A program made the position numbers and the translations under genes. A stretch of DNA of 32,837 bases, taken from NCBI GenBank assembly GCA_946055095.1, contig CAMGEM010000006.1, positions 1 to 32,837 of the forward strand. The letters are read 5' to 3'. The notes under the pieces are model-generated. The model saw nothing but the letters and a program-made list of their open reading frames with translations. It was not told the DNA's origin and searched no databases. The stretch comes from an uncultured Parabacteroides sp. GTDB lineage: Bacteria > Bacteroidota > Bacteroidia > Bacteroidales > Tannerellaceae. This document shows positions 12,801 through 19,025 of this stretch, one piece after another; within the stretch, counting starts at the first letter, position 1, and every line of letters starts with the position of its first letter.

Positions 12801-13128
12801 AGGCAATTTGTGGATCCACACCCGGCCATTGCCCACCAAATTGACCATGAAACAGTTGTACGCCTGAAATTCCAGCCGAAGCGATCGCCTCCAAATCTGC
12901 CGTGATGCCCTCCAGTGAGACATTGCCACCAATGTAATGAAACCACGTCTCCGGATAATAGATCTTATCCGGTTGACGGAAAGTGGAACGATCTTGCTCT
13001 GCAAAAGGACGACTCAGCACCGCTCGATCAGGCACAGCAGCCACTTGGGCGGAAACGAAGTTTCCTCCACCAACCAAAGCCGCAACCACTGCCCAACATT
13101 TAATATGTAACGTATTCCTCCAGTTCAT
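9850..13128 (-). CDS. GH106-like glycoside hydrolase (putative alpha-L-rhamnosidase)
   Basis: A 1092-aa exported enzyme. A signal peptide (KCWAVVAALVGGGNFVSAQ) is followed by a family opening typical of GH106-like proteins (WFHYIGGNVSLEGITADLE, GVQLFHGQFGG). Conserved catalytic-domain stretches near the middle include AYETASGD, VPMCEFWQP and RVAAESFTSF, whose glutamates are candidate catalytic residues. The C-terminal 120 residues look like a GH2-type jelly roll (CWLDLGEVDMIATVTLNGK, APYAVDL). GH106 enzymes remove alpha-L-rhamnose from pectic and other glycans; the substrate here is unproven. The frame is open upstream to 13206, but I chose the ATG at 13128 because it starts right before the signal peptide and avoids overlap with a 34-aa reading frame. 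No SusC/SusD genes are in view. Confidence 0.85.
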   Translation of the reverse strand: MNWRNTLHIKCWAVVAALVGGGNFVSAQVAAVPDRAVLSRPFAEQDRSTFRQPDKIYYPETWFHYIGGNVSLEGITADLEAIASAGISGVQLFHGQFGGQWPGVDPQIACLSPLWENAVRHTAEECRRLGLRLTMQNCPGWAMSGGPWIAPSNAMRHLVYSRTDVHVTGDVVMAQLPLPEPSAEEWRDYRDVTVLAFPTPLGDTGKPLQPIEIKGSDEEDWQACLTDPNGARLKLSPADEHTPHWVEVRFPEETVVRTLELPAINSMNSAWVYEPGVKVRLLALPRLGKPVEVASTDLPQSNWQDDSPFTIACQEVSGVDRYRLEIINAHDLKLSSVRLYSAARKHSWESEAGWTLRSIDRSADGIWQSPLSYVKASEIQDITSSMQPDGSLRWTAPQAGAWTILRIGHVNTGMKNAPAPPEGTGWECDKLSESGPNAHFAGYIGKLATGALQGGLLNGMLLDSWECKTQTWTPAMEQEFQRVSGYALRRWLPAVFGYVVDDPETTDRFLLDWRQTIDDLYVNKFFGRMATLAKEQGLSIAYETASGDVFPTDIMKFFKYADVPMCEFWQPTMTNYVGSLNFKPIKPTASAARLYGKPRVAAESFTSFALTWDEHWEMLKEIANFHFVEGVTHNVFHTYTHNPRTDFLQPGTSFGSLIGTPFLRGQTWWKHMPELTGYLARCGYLLERGVPVSDVLWYLGDEMNHKPDQQAPFPAGYKYDYCNPDVLLNRLSVRDGRLVTPEGLSYRLLWMPDTERMLPATVKKLLALVEAGAIVVGNAPKGMATLSGGETAEQAFQQVVRQLWGDQPTGVRTVGKGKVLANCTLEEALRTLQVKPDVKGEGALWTHRQTAGADWYFVCAPIGKAFQGTLAFRAGGSVELWDPVTGESRALPATSQGDYTQVELNLPEAGSCFVVFNAPGEADQTKAVPALTKQQVLEGKWTLAFPDGWGAPRQLKVKELKPWCELLPSAEGKAFSGTATYTTTFQWNQQPTDAPCWLDLGEVDMIATVTLNGKKLRTVWCAPYAVDLSSALRAGKNELTIEVTSTWFNRLVYDAGLPEAERKTWTISGPKANAPLRKSGLMGPVVLKYSEH

Positions 13129-13568: not shown

Positions 13569-14807
13569 TCAAAATTGTTTCAAGAGGAAAGAGGGATTAA
13601 TCCGCATACAAACGGAAGCGGAGAAACCAGATCCACTACTTGCAGAGATAGGCAAGCCATCAGCTCCTTGCAACTGATCCGAAAGACGTTGAAAATAATC
13701 GACCTCCACCAAGAAATGGAAGCCTTTTCCCAACGAACGACCATACTCCGCCCCGAAATAGAGCAACTTAGGATTTGCGAAGGTTGCCCCTGGATCGGTC
13801 AACGAAGCCGCACTGAAATAGGGATTGCCGAACAGCGAGATGAAATCCTTCGCCTGCCAATAAGCGCCCTTCAAACGGAAATCACGCACATCCGCAAAAA
13901 GACGGGCATACACTCCATAGCCTTGATCCAATGGCCAAAGCGTGCCGGCTTGCTGGTAATACCCCAACAGATCGACCTCGAAACCCATCCGTCGCAAGTA
14001 GCGATAGCCCGGTTGCCAACAGACTCCCACTCCCACGGCTCCATTCATTAATGTCTGTACCGATTGCGTCGTGATCGTATCAATCTCCCCTCCTCGATGC
14101 TGCACCAATGCCTGCACCGGCGAATAGAAATGAAACGGGGCGGAAGGATCATTATACTTCACCCGACCGGAAACACCAACCGTAAAAGCCTCCTGATGCG
14201 AGTCTTCCTTGAAAATAAAACTTTGCCAATTCACCCACGCATCCAGATCGAAACGCCTTGCGTGATAAAGCACCTGCAACCCCATCTCTGGATCACATGT
14301 TAAATTCAACTCCGGGTTGTACAATGGCTCGATTAAACGATGATTGGCAGCACCATAGAGATTGCCCAGCACCACATCTACCTGCTCCGAAAGGGCCATC
14401 TGTGCCCGGAAATAGGGCAAGATATGTGTTCCTTTTTGATACTGACTCCCTTTCCATTGCGCAATATCTTGATAAGCCATACTGGGATATTTGTTCGCCC
14501 CATGATACACCAAAAGGTGTGCCCCCAACTCCACCTTCATACGCTCTAACGGGTAATAAACCAACTTGGGTTGTAGCCAAAATCCCGGCAGCGAATACCC
14601 CTTTACCACCTTTCCCGAATACTCATTGTCTTTGAAAAAACTGAGGTTATCCAATTCTACCGACAACTGTCGCACCCGTTCAACCGCCACATGAGAATCA
14701 GCGATATAGGCACCTTCCGCCCCTTGCGCGCACACGACATCCTGCCATAAGGCACTCATCAATCCGATCGCACCACAGCATAAACCCCGTATAATCGCTC
14801 TTTTCAT
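13569..14807 (-). CDS. Outer-membrane beta-barrel-like protein
   Basis: A 412-aa exported protein of no named family that I recognise. It has a signal peptide (residues 1-29, ending VVCAQG), then alternating hydrophobic/polar segments rich in aromatic residues (WLQPKLVYYPLERMKVELG, HFLVEVDYFQRLS) and a C-terminal phenylalanine, all features of outer-membrane barrels. The frame is open upstream to 14879; I chose the internal ATG at 14807 because it starts directly before the signal peptide. It faces the plus-strand CDP-alcohol operon divergently across 180 bases. Transport, adhesion or lipid export roles are equally possible. Confidence 0.65.
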   Translation of the reverse strand: MKRAIIRGLCCGAIGLMSALWQDVVCAQGAEGAYIADSHVAVERVRQLSVELDNLSFFKDNEYSGKVVKGYSLPGFWLQPKLVYYPLERMKVELGAHLLVYHGANKYPSMAYQDIAQWKGSQYQKGTHILPYFRAQMALSEQVDVVLGNLYGAANHRLIEPLYNPELNLTCDPEMGLQVLYHARRFDLDAWVNWQSFIFKEDSHQEAFTVGVSGRVKYNDPSAPFHFYSPVQALVQHRGGEIDTITTQSVQTLMNGAVGVGVCWQPGYRYLRRMGFEVDLLGYYQQAGTLWPLDQGYGVYARLFADVRDFRLKGAYWQAKDFISLFGNPYFSAASLTDPGATFANPKLLYFGAEYGRSLGKGFHFLVEVDYFQRLSDQLQGADGLPISASSGSGFSASVCMRINPSFLLKQF

Positions 14808-14904
14808 CGTTCTATTTCTTTGTCCATCACCTCGCGAACTTAACGAAAAAAGCGACAAAAGGACGTTTTCATAGCACATTTATCCTCTTTTGTTTCCTTT
14901 CGGA

Positions 14905-14957: not shown

Positions 14958-14987
14958 CGGGGTTATTTTTGCGATAAATATAGAAGT

Positions 14988-15686
14988 ATGGATTATGCGA
15001 TCATTGCCGCAGGCGAAGGATCTCGCTTAGCGCAAGAAGGAATAAAGTGGCCCAAGCCTCTGGTCAAGTTGAACGGTATAGCATTAATTGATCGGTTAAT
15101 CGACGTGTTCCTTCGGAATAACGCCAGTTCCATCAATATCATTGTCAACGAGCAAATGACTGAGGTGCAAGACCATTTGAAGGCTTTACAGCTACCTGTT
15201 CCCTTCCATCTATTAATCAAGTCAACGCCCAGCTCCATGCACAGTTTCTACGAGTTGAGCCAAATATGGCAGGGTGAGGAGATCTGTTTGACAACAGTGG
15301 ACACCATTTTCCGGGAAGAGGAGTTCAGCGGATATATCCAAGCTTTTCGTCAAGAGAAGACGTTGGATGGATTGATGGCCGTCACCGATTACATCGACGA
15401 CGAGAAGCCACTCTACGTCCAAACCAACGAACAGTTGGATATCGTTAACTTCCTCGATCGCTCGAACGGCGATTGCCGTTACATCTCCGGTGGCATCTAT
15501 TGCTTGCGTAAGCCAGCCATCGGTGTGTTGAAGAAGGCGATAGACGAGGGCATGTCACGCATGCGCAACTACCAGCGCCAGCTGATCGCTGAGGGATTGC
15601 GACTGAAAGCCTATCCGTTCAGCAAGATTATTGATGTGGATCACGCAGAGGACATCGTGAAGGCAGAGGCCTTCGTGCAAGCATAA
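14988..15686 (+). CDS. Nucleotidyltransferase (sugar-1-P/phosphocholine-type NTP transferase)
   Basis: A 232-aa nucleotidyltransferase with the GT-A-like NTP transferase fold. The nucleotide-binding signature IIAAGEGSRL (residues 5-14) is followed by WPKPLV, the lysine contacting phosphates, and a metal-binding Asp in TTVDTIF (Asp105). Single-domain enzymes of this kind make CDP- or NDP-activated small molecules such as CDP-choline or CDP-inositol. The neighbouring CDP-alcohol phosphotransferase makes CTP the likely nucleotide, which is inference. It is the first gene of a plus-strand set; the next gene begins 33 bases after its stop. Confidence 0.82.
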   Translation: MDYAIIAAGEGSRLAQEGIKWPKPLVKLNGIALIDRLIDVFLRNNASSINIIVNEQMTEVQDHLKALQLPVPFHLLIKSTPSSMHSFYELSQIWQGEEICLTTVDTIFREEEFSGYIQAFRQEKTLDGLMAVTDYIDDEKPLYVQTNEQLDIVNFLDRSNGDCRYISGGIYCLRKPAIGVLKKAIDEGMSRMRNYQRQLIAEGLRLKAYPFSKIIDVDHAEDIVKAEAFVQA

Positions 15687-15719
15687 AACTTTACGACAAA
15701 AGAGAGACGAACGAACAAA

Positions 15720-16586
15720 ATGAAGGAATTAACATTAGCTGGCATCCGGAGAGGAAACCAATTCTCTCCCAATCATGTGGGAAATGATGCCGCCATTTTC
15801 GCCTTGACGGCGGAACACCTGCGCAAATTGGGATGCAAAGTCAATGAGCACATCGAGTCAGACCTGCTCCTTGGCGATCCTACCGAGCAAGGTATATTTA
15901 ATATGGTAAGAGATTGGAAATCGATTCATAAATTGCAGGCGTTGGAAGATCGTGGCTACTGCGTGGTCAATTCCGGCTACGGCATTGAGAACTGTACCCG
16001 CGAGAAGATGACCCGCTTGCTGCTCTCCAACCACATCTCTCATCCCCGTAGCTTGATTCTCCAAACCACGGAGGACCCGATCGCCCAGATGGAAGAGGAG
16101 GGCTTCTACAACTGCTGGATTAAACGAGGTGATTTCCATGCGATCCACCGTGAGGACGTGACCTATGTGCGCAACCCGGAAGAGGCACGCACGATTTTGA
16201 AAGAGTATGCCATCCGCGGCATTCCCTCAGCCGTGATCAACGAGCACTTAGTGGGAGACTTGGTGAAGTTCTACGGCGTGGCAGGCACCGACTTTTTCTA
16301 CTGGTTCTATCCCTCCAACATGCACCACAGCAAGTTCGGATTAGAGGCCATCAATGGCACCGCCAAAGGGTTGCCATTCGATGAGCAGACCTTGCAAACG
16401 CTTTGTAACGAGGCAGCGAAGGTGTTGCACGTAGAGGTATATGGTGGAGATTGTATCGTAGATGAGGAGGGTACGATCCGACTGATCGACTTCAACGACT
16501 GGCCCAGTTTTGCCCCTTGTCGGGAGGCAGCCGCCCCCTACATCGCCCGTCGCATCTACGACATCATGAGCGAACGGCTTTCATAA
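15720..16586 (+). CDS. ATP-grasp-like enzyme of unknown substrate
   Basis: A 288-aa soluble protein that looks like an ATP-grasp enzyme, though I cannot name its subfamily. Supporting motifs are a lysine in NCWIKRGDFHAI (Lys135), the hinge-like INEHLVGDLVKFYGV (Glu175, Lys183), and the C-terminal metal-binding pair GGDCIVDEEG and RLIDFNDWPSF, with Asp257 and Asn259 in the classical D-x-N arrangement. ATP-grasp members are ligases joining amines to carboxylates, or kinases such as the inositol-phosphate 5/6-kinases. Placed between a nucleotidyltransferase and a CDP-alcohol phosphotransferase, it probably modifies the headgroup precursor or product. Confidence 0.65.
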   Translation: MKELTLAGIRRGNQFSPNHVGNDAAIFALTAEHLRKLGCKVNEHIESDLLLGDPTEQGIFNMVRDWKSIHKLQALEDRGYCVVNSGYGIENCTREKMTRLLLSNHISHPRSLILQTTEDPIAQMEEEGFYNCWIKRGDFHAIHREDVTYVRNPEEARTILKEYAIRGIPSAVINEHLVGDLVKFYGVAGTDFFYWFYPSNMHHSKFGLEAINGTAKGLPFDEQTLQTLCNEAAKVLHVEVYGGDCIVDEEGTIRLIDFNDWPSFAPCREAAAPYIARRIYDIMSERLS

Positions 16587-16618
16587 ATTTCATACACGAC
16601 AATTAACAACTTCACAGC

Positions 16619-17524
16619 ATGAAAGAACAACCGCAAAAGCCCAGCTTGGAATCGACATTGAAGTCGATGGACACGGAAGAGTTTATCGATATCCATTTCT
16701 ATCGGCCGATTGGCTATCAGTGGGCTTTGTTTTTTAATAAGTTGGGTGTCACACCCAATGCCATCACCGTAGCCAGCATCTTCATCGGTATTGCCGCTGG
16801 TATCTGCTTTTATCCCAAAGATCTGATCACTAACGTGATCGGTATGCTTTTGCTCATCTGGGCAAATTCGTATGACAGCGCCGACGGACAGTTGGCACGA
16901 ATGACCGGACAGAAAAGCGCACTCGGACGTATTCTCGACGGTACGGCAGGCGACTTTTGGTTTATCGCCATCTACGCTGCTATCTGCCTCCGCTTGACAC
17001 CTGAATGGGGCATCTGGATCTGGCTCTTAGCCGCCGTGACCGGTTGGTTTCACAGCAAACAGGCAGCGATGGCCGACTATTACCGCAACATCCACCTCCT
17101 CTTTCTCAAAGGGAAATCAGGCAGTGAGCTCTCTCACTCTCCGCAGCTGAAAGAGAACTTCAAGAAGATGAGTTGGAAGAAGGATTTCATCTACAAGCTT
17201 TTCGAGATGTTCTACATCAACTACACGCAGGGGCAAGAGGCATGGACACCTCGTTTCCAAGCGATGATGCAACGCATCCGCACGAAGCACAACGGGCAAG
17301 CACCAACCGAGTTTTGCCAAGCGTTTCGCTTGCGCAGCCTTCCGTTGATGAAATACACCAACATGCTCTCGTTCAACACGCGTGTGATCGCCCTCTTCGT
17401 GAGCCTATTCATCGACATGCCTTGGCTCTACTTCGTGTTCGAGATGACCGTGCTCAATAGCATGTTGCTCTACATGATCCGTACCCACGAACGCATTTGC
17501 AAAGAAATGATTGATAGTTTATGA
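16619..17524 (+). CDS. CDP-alcohol phosphotransferase family membrane enzyme
   Basis: A 301-aa integral membrane protein with the CDP-alcohol phosphotransferase signature DSADGQLAR (residues 86-94), then G103 and D107. The family normally has a fourth Asp three residues after the third; here the next Asp is Asp112, so one residue appears inserted. Hydrophobic segments surround the motif (residues about 50-66, 72-84, 113-125, 130-145) and a further hydrophobic region lies at the C-terminus. A hydrophilic insertion separates them at about 150-240, longer than usual. The enzyme should move a phospho-alcohol from a CDP carrier to an acceptor alcohol or lipid; both substrates are unknown. Its stop overlaps the HAD gene start as ATGA. 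Confidence 0.85.
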   Translation: MKEQPQKPSLESTLKSMDTEEFIDIHFYRPIGYQWALFFNKLGVTPNAITVASIFIGIAAGICFYPKDLITNVIGMLLLIWANSYDSADGQLARMTGQKSALGRILDGTAGDFWFIAIYAAICLRLTPEWGIWIWLLAAVTGWFHSKQAAMADYYRNIHLLFLKGKSGSELSHSPQLKENFKKMSWKKDFIYKLFEMFYINYTQGQEAWTPRFQAMMQRIRTKHNGQAPTEFCQAFRLRSLPLMKYTNMLSFNTRVIALFVSLFIDMPWLYFVFEMTVLNSMLLYMIRTHERICKEMIDSL

Positions 17525-18234
17525 TTGAGACAACGAGAATAAAAGGTCTTCTTTTCGATTACGGAGGAACGATCGACAGCAACGGGCTCCATTGGGCAGA
17601 AGTTATCTGGCAGGCATACGAAGCCCTGCAAGTCCCTGTAAGCAAGGAATGTTTCCGGGAGGCATACGTCTATGGCGAACGTACCTTAGGTAAGAACCCG
17701 ATCGTGCAGCCACACCACACCTTCTTGGACATGCTGCGCTTGAAATGCAACCTGCAAATCCAATGGTTGCAACAGGAGGGACATCTTTCCATGGAAGTGA
17801 ACCCAGCGAATGAGATCGCAGAATGGTGCTATGCCTATGCGCACCAAGCAATCAACCAAGCACGCCCTATCTTGAGGCAGTTGGCAGAACGCTATCCCAT
17901 GGTGTTGGTTTCTAATTTCTATGGTAACATCGAGAGCGTGCTCCATGATTTCGAGTTGGACAACCTATTTGGTTCGATCGTAGAGTCGGCCGTGGTAGGT
18001 GTACGCAAACCGAATCCCGCCATCTTTCAGATGGGCGTTGATCGTCTATGTATGAAACCGGAAGAGGTGGTTGTGATCGGCGACTCGTACGATAAGGACA
18101 TCGTACCTGCCACCCAAATCGGCTGCCAAACCGTTTGGCTAAAAAGTATTGGCTGGGCACCCTATCGAGGTGATGAGACAGCGGATGCGGTCATCTCCGA
18201 CTTCCAGGAGCTGAAAGCCGTCTTTGGACTTTAG
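17521..18234 (+). CDS. HAD-superfamily phosphatase
   Basis: A 237-aa C1-capped HAD hydrolase. Motif I is LLFDYGGTID, where the usual second Asp is Gly, as in several active HAD enzymes (for example the YihX-like DLGN type). Motif II is VLVSNFYG, motif III is the Lys in GVRKPNP, and motif IV is VVIGDSYDKDI. All catalytic positions needed for phosphoaspartate chemistry are present. The ATGA overlap with the CDP-alcohol phosphotransferase suggests it removes a phosphate from that enzyme's product or precursor. It ends the plus-strand operon; a 23-base tandem repeat array follows. Confidence 0.85.
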   Translation: MIETTRIKGLLFDYGGTIDSNGLHWAEVIWQAYEALQVPVSKECFREAYVYGERTLGKNPIVQPHHTFLDMLRLKCNLQIQWLQQEGHLSMEVNPANEIAEWCYAYAHQAINQARPILRQLAERYPMVLVSNFYGNIESVLHDFELDNLFGSIVESAVVGVRKPNPAIFQMGVDRLCMKPEEVVVIGDSYDKDIVPATQIGCQTVWLKSIGWAPYRGDETADAVISDFQELKAVFGL

Positions 18235-18383: not shown

Positions 18384-19025
18384 TTACCGCACGTAAGCCA
18401 CCAAGCCAGGGAGAGTAGGATGGTCGCAAAAGAGTGCTTCTTTACCACTCACACGAAACGTCATCAGCTTCCAGATGATCAGCATATCTCCTCCACCACC
18501 GATCACCATCAGCAAGGCGATTACAAACCATCCCCAATCATTCATCGCTATGGCGATAAATGCAGGCAGAAAGCCCACTATAATCGTTGGCATAGCCGCT
18601 CCCCAAATATATTGCCTCCGTGTCAACGGTTCGATGCAGGCGCAATAGGGCGTCAACATCGACCAGATCACGCCAAATTGAATGGCCTTGTAGCGATGTG
18701 GGGCAAACCATCCGAACACAGCCCCATGAATCAACTCATGCAACACCGTGAGTAGCAATACGATCGCCACCACAACCAAAGGGAAGAAGGAGGCTTCCGC
18801 CATGTCCCATCCTTCATAATCCATCGGTGTCAGCAGAGTGAACAACCCCATCAGTACCAATACAAAGGGCATCGACATAACAAAGCCTAACCAGTTCGCT
18901 TTCGAAACGCTCACCGTCAAGTCATGCCGCTCATAACCTTCCGCTATCCGACGCTCATTCTCCGCATCAAAAGCCTCTTTTCGGAGCAACTCTGCTTTCG
19001 ATAGTTTTCGTTCTTTTGTCATCAC
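18384..19025 (-). CDS. DUF3267 membrane zincin-like protein
   Basis: A 213-aa membrane protein with a zinc-protease-like HELIH motif (His96, Glu97, His100) inside a hydrophobic segment (VLLLTVLHELIHGAVFGWF). The arrangement matches the DUF3267 putative zincin family, which resembles M50 site-2 proteases. Other hydrophobic segments lie near residues 45-65, 80-95, 133-160 and 165-180; the first 40 residues are charged and cytosolic. Substrates are unknown. It starts 12 bases after the transglutaminase-like lipoprotein gene and closes that operon. Confidence 0.8.
   Translation of the reverse strand: MMTKERKLSKAELLRKEAFDAENERRIAEGYERHDLTVSVSKANWLGFVMSMPFVLVLMGLFTLLTPMDYEGWDMAEASFFPLVVVAIVLLLTVLHELIHGAVFGWFAPHRYKAIQFGVIWSMLTPYCACIEPLTRRQYIWGAAMPTIIVGFLPAFIAIAMNDWGWFVIALLMVIGGGGDMLIIWKLMTFRVSGKEALFCDHPTLPGLVAYVR

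Follow-up and report, generated by a model that had tools for sequence, protein, structure and literature searches.

Inositol-lipid gene clusters of Bacteroidetes and the window cassette

Inositol lipids are rare among bacteria and common in gut Bacteroidetes. In Bacteroides thetaiotaomicron, they influence resistance to antimicrobial peptides as well as fitness in mice, and the BT_1522-1526 genes have been shown by experiment to make them (PMC9246714). A nucleotidyltransferase (NTP transferase), a CDP-alcohol transferase, and a HAD hydrolase encoded near the myo-inositol-phosphate synthase gene (MIPS) in B. vulgatus and Prevotella were described as a putative alternative cluster; CDP-inositol chemistry was proposed, functions were stated to be unconfirmed, and exceptions to MIPS proximity were given, e.g. 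P. copri (Heaver et al. 2022, PMC9246714). B. vulgatus, in which this alternative type was described, makes phosphoinositol (PI)-dihydroceramide (PI-DHC; PMC9246714); ceramide-PI has been reported in it, while diacyl-PI was not detected (PMC10056535). We found no later experimental test of the alternative pathway in the open-access literature. Here, we analyze a four-gene cassette in the window, by which we mean the whole 32,837-nucleotide stretch of contig CAMGEM010000006.1, from a Parabacteroides genome (G000, an 84%-complete assembly).

The cassette comprises four open reading frames (ORFs) on the + strand (14988-18234), which encode an NTP transferase (232 aa), an ATP-grasp protein (288 aa), a CDP-alcohol phosphotransferase (301 aa), and a HAD protein (237 aa). 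Gaps of 33 nt (NTP/ATP-grasp) and 32 nt (ATP-grasp/CDP-alcohol) separate the first three genes and an ATGA overlap joins the last two, a co-directional, tightly packed set that we confirmed as genuine. The NTP transferase (NTP_transf_3/NTP_transferase), CDP-OH_P_transf, and HAD assignments all exceed Pfam cut-offs, so that the window, like the alternative cluster (PMC9246714), encodes these three functions together. The differences are that MIPS is usually adjacent in the published cluster and that the window adds an ATP-grasp gene between the NTP transferase and CDP-alcohol genes. The PMC9246714 text on the alternative cluster makes no mention of an ATP-grasp gene; the published tags BVU_RS13095/13105/13115 leave gaps at 13100 and 13110, which gives room for ATP-grasp and LPG_synthase_TM genes. 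In families other than that of the window, related loci have LPG_synthase_TM and DUF5686/carboxypeptidase-regulatory neighbors, with LPG_synthase_TM between the CDP-alcohol and HAD genes, and the LPG_synthase_TM and carboxypeptidase-regulatory neighbors agree with those named in PMC9246714. The window cassette is very probably the alternative inositol-lipid cluster of that study rather than a route to an unfamiliar alcohol. Overall, the four genes very probably form an inositol-lipid biosynthesis cassette of the alternative Bacteroidetes type, and we are more confident still that their product is an inositol lipid.

The window cassette shares with the experimentally characterized BT_1522-1526 cluster its presumed product class and its chromosomal site in Parabacteroides. 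It differs in its enzymes: the B. thetaiotaomicron set uses CDP-diacylglycerol and inositol phosphate via PIPS, a PgpA-type phosphatase, and PI-DHC synthase, none of which is in the window cassette. The best score against the PIPS model NF052561 was 21 bits (cut-off 350), and a search of G000 for PI-DHC synthase (NF052609) gave no match.

Conservation and linkage to MIPS

An alignment of the ATP-grasp protein, scanned over 84,980 species' genomes, found at least 576 relatives, and we kept 80 named loci, nearly all labelled Bacteroidales or families inside Bacteroidales. Two of the 80 come from metagenome-assembled genomes (MAGs) labelled Lachnospiraceae and Clostridium, which are probably misbinned or misnamed. 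The order NTP transferase, ATP-grasp, CDP-alcohol transferase, HAD is repeated in nearly all 80 loci. Counting only loci with sufficient flanks, the NTP transferase gene lies directly 5' of the ATP-grasp gene in 71/74, the CDP-alcohol gene directly 3' of it in 75/78, and a HAD gene no more than 2.6 kb away in 67/72. This conservation of order over 80 loci rules out a chance array of four genes. The sequence-only reading had treated the four genes as one unit, which is borne out by both the ORF calls and the gene order, and had named a lack of conserved neighborhoods as its refutation; the neighborhoods proved to be conserved. Its description of a pathway with no named product did not survive, since the NTP transferase/CDP-alcohol/HAD set had already been published as a putative inositol-lipid cluster (PMC9246714).

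MIPS adjoins the cassette in 43 of the 80 loci, upstream in 16 and downstream in 27. Among 393 genomes spread evenly over Bacteroidales, 52 carry the ATP-grasp gene, 62 carry MIPS, and 47 carry both. MIPS is thus found in 47/52 ATP-grasp carriers vs 15/341 non-carriers (Fisher p ~1e-41, which is no true probability as the genomes are related), and the two genes are no more than 6 kb apart in 38 of the 47 genomes with both. In one large family, nearly every member has the route, the ATP-grasp gene being present in 228/247 genomes; the analysis indicates that this family is probably Muribaculaceae.

In the window itself, MIPS is not adjacent to the cassette; the same genome has MIPS on another contig, C224. 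The C224 MIPS (locus L034) is of a second type, 91% identical to that of another Parabacteroides and 65% to the cassette-linked type. It is also 88% identical to MIPS of P. bouchesdurhonensis and of one genome of the probable Muribaculaceae family. We found no synteny between C224 and the P. bouchesdurhonensis MIPS locus, the flanking gene not being in common.

Some clusters vary in composition. At L089:4528-7037, a fused NTP transferase/ATP-grasp gene is followed by a YegS/diacylglycerol-kinase-type lipid kinase at the expected CDP-alcohol position, and at L222:3114-4049, a PfkB-family kinase adjoins the ATP-grasp cluster, with MIPS absent from the surrounding 14 kb. Dysgonomonas sp. 25 (L104:7881-9653) has the NTP transferase, ATP-grasp, HAD, and MIPS genes, but a 590-aa lipoprotein-like gene replaces the CDP-alcohol gene; elsewhere in this genome, there is one weak CDP-alcohol match only (3e-5). 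In another class of the same phylum (L212, L213, L215, L216, L218, L219, and L220), the cluster adds an MlaE permease, an ABC ATPase, MlaD, a class-III aminotransferase, and a Gfo/Idh/MocA oxidoreductase, and the ATP-grasp gene is present singly or as a tandem pair (genes were assigned by Pfam in L212, L216, and L220, and by similarity of sequence and order in the other four). This content points to an amino-inositol lipid that has a dedicated Mla-type transporter. One genome (G753) carries two cluster versions, one with two ATP-grasp genes, the aminotransferase, and the oxidoreductase, the other with a single ATP-grasp gene and neither enzyme (L213 and L214).

Exchange with the characterized cassette

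In Parabacteroides, one chromosomal site is flanked on one side by LpxZ and MIPS and on the other by a metallophosphatase gene and a 208-aa gene. This site holds the window-type four genes in P. goldsteinii, P. faecis, and others, and the B. thetaiotaomicron-type set of PgpA, GtrA, PIPS, and PI-DHC synthase in six genomes (G002, G013, G014, G021, G023, and G129; the stretch examined in G002 did not show the metallophosphatase side). The profile check among these six was done on G013, where PIPS scored 388 bits (NF052561, cut-off 350) and PI-DHC synthase 559 bits (NF052609, cut-off 480), with PgpA and GtrA identified by Pfam. Genome G337 has a merged cluster of NTP transferase, ATP-grasp, PgpA, GtrA, PIPS, PI-DHC synthase, CDP-alcohol, and MIPS genes, from which HAD is absent. 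In G163, an ATP-grasp gene lies within a cluster of GtrA, PIPS, PI-DHC synthase, and MIPS, in a region without NTP transferase, CDP-alcohol, or HAD genes. PI-DHC synthase is found in 14/15 MIPS genomes lacking the ATP-grasp gene vs 7/52 carrying it. Based on the same-site exchange, the merged cluster, and this distribution, the two cassettes are largely alternatives for one job. The alternative route, as yet unproven, is now tied to the characterized cassette by exchange at one site and gains an ATP-grasp core enzyme.

The bounding genes at L020:8510-9923, a calcineurin-like metallophosphatase and a 208-aa protein with no Pfam match, adjoin both cassette types in Parabacteroides and are absent from the window.

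The ATP-grasp protein

Because the ATP-grasp gene is fused to the NTP transferase gene in several genomes, and once, in a single 820-aa ORF of G207, to both the NTP transferase and CDP-alcohol genes, it is a core member of the cassette. A Pfam search matched the 288-aa protein to no family, ITPK (PF05770) included, and NCBIfam gave weak RimK/LysX-type matches only (rimK_fam TIGR00768, 26.4 bits vs a cut-off of 143.4). The AlphaFold model (pLDDT 90, pTM 0.87) clearly predicts an ATP-grasp fold. Foldseek ranked ArgX, Ddl, ITPK, and RimK closely (ArgX/LysX 3e-15, Ddl 2e-14, ITPK1 2e-13), and a diverse ATP-grasp profile matched PsnB at 3e-8, seven ITPK sequences at 2e-6 to 0.2, and RimK at 2e-4 and weaker. 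The metal motif of the window protein is IIDFNDWPSF, i.e. D-x-N-x-x-P-S-F, and nearly all of the 29 diverse members compared retain its Asp. ITPKs have equivalent motifs (VVDVNVFPSY, IVDLNYLPSF, and VIDINAFPGY; D-x-N-x-x-P-(S/G)-(F/Y)), while PsnB and LysX instead have E-x-N (LELN and NELN). The window protein therefore resembles ITPK kinases in fold and metal motif, with the difference that its similarity to them by diverse profile is remote (2e-6).

P. distasonis and relatives (G001, G005, G011, G016, and G017) carry the cassette, and neither MIPS Pfam domain was found in any of these five genomes, each listed as 99% complete; in this, they differ from the published alternative cluster (PMC9246714). 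That this group keeps the ATP-grasp gene without any MIPS suggests inositol salvage. The ATP-grasp protein is most simply read as a kinase with inositol or an inositol phosphate as its substrate, an assignment that we consider reasonably probable; it would seem to be a bacterial inositol kinase of a new kind.

Predicted activities and route

The NTP transferase and the CDP-alcohol enzyme weakly match the two halves of NF041135, the archaeal IPCT/DIPPS model, with 29.7 and 25.6 bits, respectively, far below the cut-off of 580. The archaeal/Thermotoga di-myo-inositol-phosphate pathway shares with the window the logic of a cytidylyltransferase and a CDP-alcohol phosphotransferase, and differs in that the window genes are separate and stand in a lipid context. 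Among solved structures, the NTP transferase profile matches the T. maritima IMPCT 4jd0 (2e-6) and RmlA 3hl3 (7e-7). A further parallel, drawn from its description, is Caulobacter CpgD, a COG1213 cytidylyltransferase that supplies a sphingolipid head group (ceramide diphosphoglycerate; PMC12275187), unlike the window enzyme in that its substrate is phosphoglycerate and no MIPS linkage is known.

The CDP-alcohol enzyme scored 41.9 bits against PF01066 (cut-off 22), and its nearest structures by profile, AF2299 (1e-10) and IPCT-DIPPS 4mnd (7e-5), are also the top two by fold. Of the family motif D-x2-D-G-x2-A-R-x8-G-x3-D-x3-D, the fourth Asp alone is absent, replaced by Gly. All cluster CDP-alcohol enzymes examined have Gly or Ser at this position, usually with D/E/N/Q one residue later; the BT-type PIPS keeps the canonical Asp. 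The HAD protein has no NCBIfam equivalog above cut-off, being placed only among diverse HAD phosphatases, and no match among solved structures at 1e-15. Its sequence alone assigns no substrate, and its phosphatase role is putative.

The proposed route is predicted at every catalytic step, on the basis of observed gene content, conservation, co-occurrence, fusions, and site-for-site exchange. Inositol phosphate would be supplied by MIPS, encoded elsewhere in G000, or by ATP-grasp phosphorylation of scavenged inositol, and the NTP transferase would combine it with CTP to give CDP-inositol. The CDP-alcohol phosphotransferase would then move phosphoinositol to dihydroceramide, possibly to diacylglycerol too, giving PI-DHC. 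The HAD protein may serve as the pathway phosphatase, acting on MIPS-made inositol-3-phosphate, a phosphorylated intermediate, or CMP. The report of ceramide-PI without detectable diacyl-PI in B. vulgatus favors a direct CDP-inositol-to-ceramide step rather than passage through PI-diacylglycerol, and we give direct transfer an even chance. Joining these points, we tentatively propose, at slightly less than an even chance, that the ATP-grasp protein represents a new bacterial family of inositol (or inositol-phosphate) kinases feeding CDP-inositol synthesis, that the MIPS-less P. distasonis group builds inositol sphingolipids wholly from scavenged inositol, and that the CDP-alcohol partner is active without the canonical fourth Asp. 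We predict that P. distasonis must import inositol for these lipids. The ATP-grasp core gene, MIPS-less carriers, cassette exchange, and non-canonical CDP-alcohol motif are additions not found in the literature we searched.

Several points weigh against these assignments. The biochemical activities of all four proteins are predictions, and the fourth Asp of the canonical motif is missing from the CDP-alcohol enzyme. Sugar nucleotidyltransferases match the NTP transferase profile slightly better than does IMPCT, and COG1213 enzymes also take phosphocholine, phosphoglutamine, and phosphoglycerate (PMC12275187). For the ATP-grasp protein, comparison of folds leaves kinase and ligase unseparated. 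The G000 MIPS lies on a 3.4-kb contig of an incomplete assembly and may be a contaminant, and our equation of the window genes with BVU_RS13095/13105/13115 draws on gene content and neighbors.

Alternative explanations

The ATP-grasp protein might instead be a carboxylate-amine type ligase (RimK/LysX/PsnB-like) that attaches an amino acid either to the head-group inositol or to some other acceptor, making a decorated lipid. ArgX and Ddl as top fold matches, PsnB as the best single profile match, and the RimK-type identity of the weak NCBIfam matches all point this way, while the ITPK-like metal motif in place of the E-x-N of PsnB and LysX, the lack of an amine-forming gene among the Bacteroidales clusters, and the G163 locus, where the ATP-grasp gene accompanies PIPS and PI-DHC synthase without an NTP transferase, make it unlikely. 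It is likewise doubtful, although inositol phosphates are the substrates of ITPKs, that the ATP-grasp enzyme converts inositol-3-phosphate to a bisphosphate, from which the NTP transferase and CDP-alcohol enzymes build a phosphorylated PI lipid whose extra phosphate the HAD protein strips. Such a scheme requires the kinase even with MIPS present and accounts for a phosphatase gene that is nearly always retained, but it is wasteful and leaves MIPS-less P. distasonis unexplained unless free inositol is also accepted.

In the published proposal (PMC9246714), MIPS and the NTP transferase lead to CDP-inositol, the CDP-alcohol enzyme makes PI-diacylglycerol, the HAD protein converts this to PI-dihydroceramide in an AUR1-like manner, and the ATP-grasp protein would be an accessory. 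In G337, PI-DHC synthase and PgpA occupy the place of HAD, no HAD gene being found there, which speaks for this scheme. The scheme is nonetheless improbable in our view: it sits poorly with the B. vulgatus lipids (PMC10056535), and it leaves without a role an ATP-grasp gene that equals the others in conservation and occurs in fusion with the NTP transferase. HAD enzymes act on small phosphoesters, as hydrolases or phosphotransferases, and a lipid-to-lipid head-group transfer would be unusual among them.

An activated alcohol other than inositol, yielding a solute or a lipid with a different head group, would fit the varied substrates of COG1213 cytidylyltransferases and the genomes whose cluster has no MIPS. 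We rejected it as very improbable on the MIPS linkage and the same-site exchange with the characterized inositol-lipid cassette, to which the merged cluster adds. The sequence-only reading had suspected a different alcohol as MIPS was absent from the locus; this no longer holds, as orthologous clusters adjoin MIPS, G000 has MIPS on C224, and the site swaps with the BT_1522-1526-type cassette. Of the two products that it had offered, a polar lipid head group is the likely one, and a solute pathway is rejected since the cassette swaps with a lipid cassette. It had been right to invoke the CDP-alcohol logic of archaeal di-inositol phosphate synthesis, and its hint that some ATP-grasp enzymes are inositol-phosphate kinases was sound as well.

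Features of the locus

The features of the locus are collected in Table 1. The LpxZ-family gene is probably a marker of the common chromosomal site that lies outside the pathway. The sequence TATTTTTG fits a Bacteroidetes promoter ahead of the NTP transferase gene, a weak match that is only suggestive; sites of the -7-box type number 20 in the window vs 13.4 expected.

Table 1. Coordinates of the cassette genes and adjoining features in the window
Feature	Position	Strand	Evidence or note
LpxZ-family gene, divergent neighbor	13569..14879	-	NF052651 504 bits, cut-off 460
TATTTTTG, match to Bacteroidetes -7 box (TAnnTTTG)	14964..14971	+	17 nt 5' of first start codon
NTP transferase (COG1213/NTP_transf_3 type), candidate CTP:inositol-phosphate cytidylyltransferase	14988..15686	+	PF12804 33 bits, PF00483 32 bits
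ATP-grasp protein, candidate inositol or inositol-phosphate kinase	15720..16586	+	predicted fold, metal motif
CDP-alcohol phosphotransferase, membrane protein; candidate for moving phosphoinositol from CDP-inositol to dihydroceramide or diacylglycerol	16619..17524	+	PF01066
HAD hydrolase, candidate pathway phosphatase	17521..18234	+	PF00702 60 bits

Directly 3' of the cassette, on the opposite strand (18384-19025), the window encodes a DUF3267 putative zincin peptidase, as does the near-identical MAG L049. A second CDP-alcohol cassette lies on the - strand of G000 contig C92 (L035, 2729-5676) and comprises a TagD-type cytidylyltransferase, an SDR protein, a CDP-alcohol paralogue, and an acyltransferase. 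The paralogue is 41% identical to the window enzyme and likewise lacks the fourth Asp; the C92 cassette probably belongs to a different phospho-head-group pathway.

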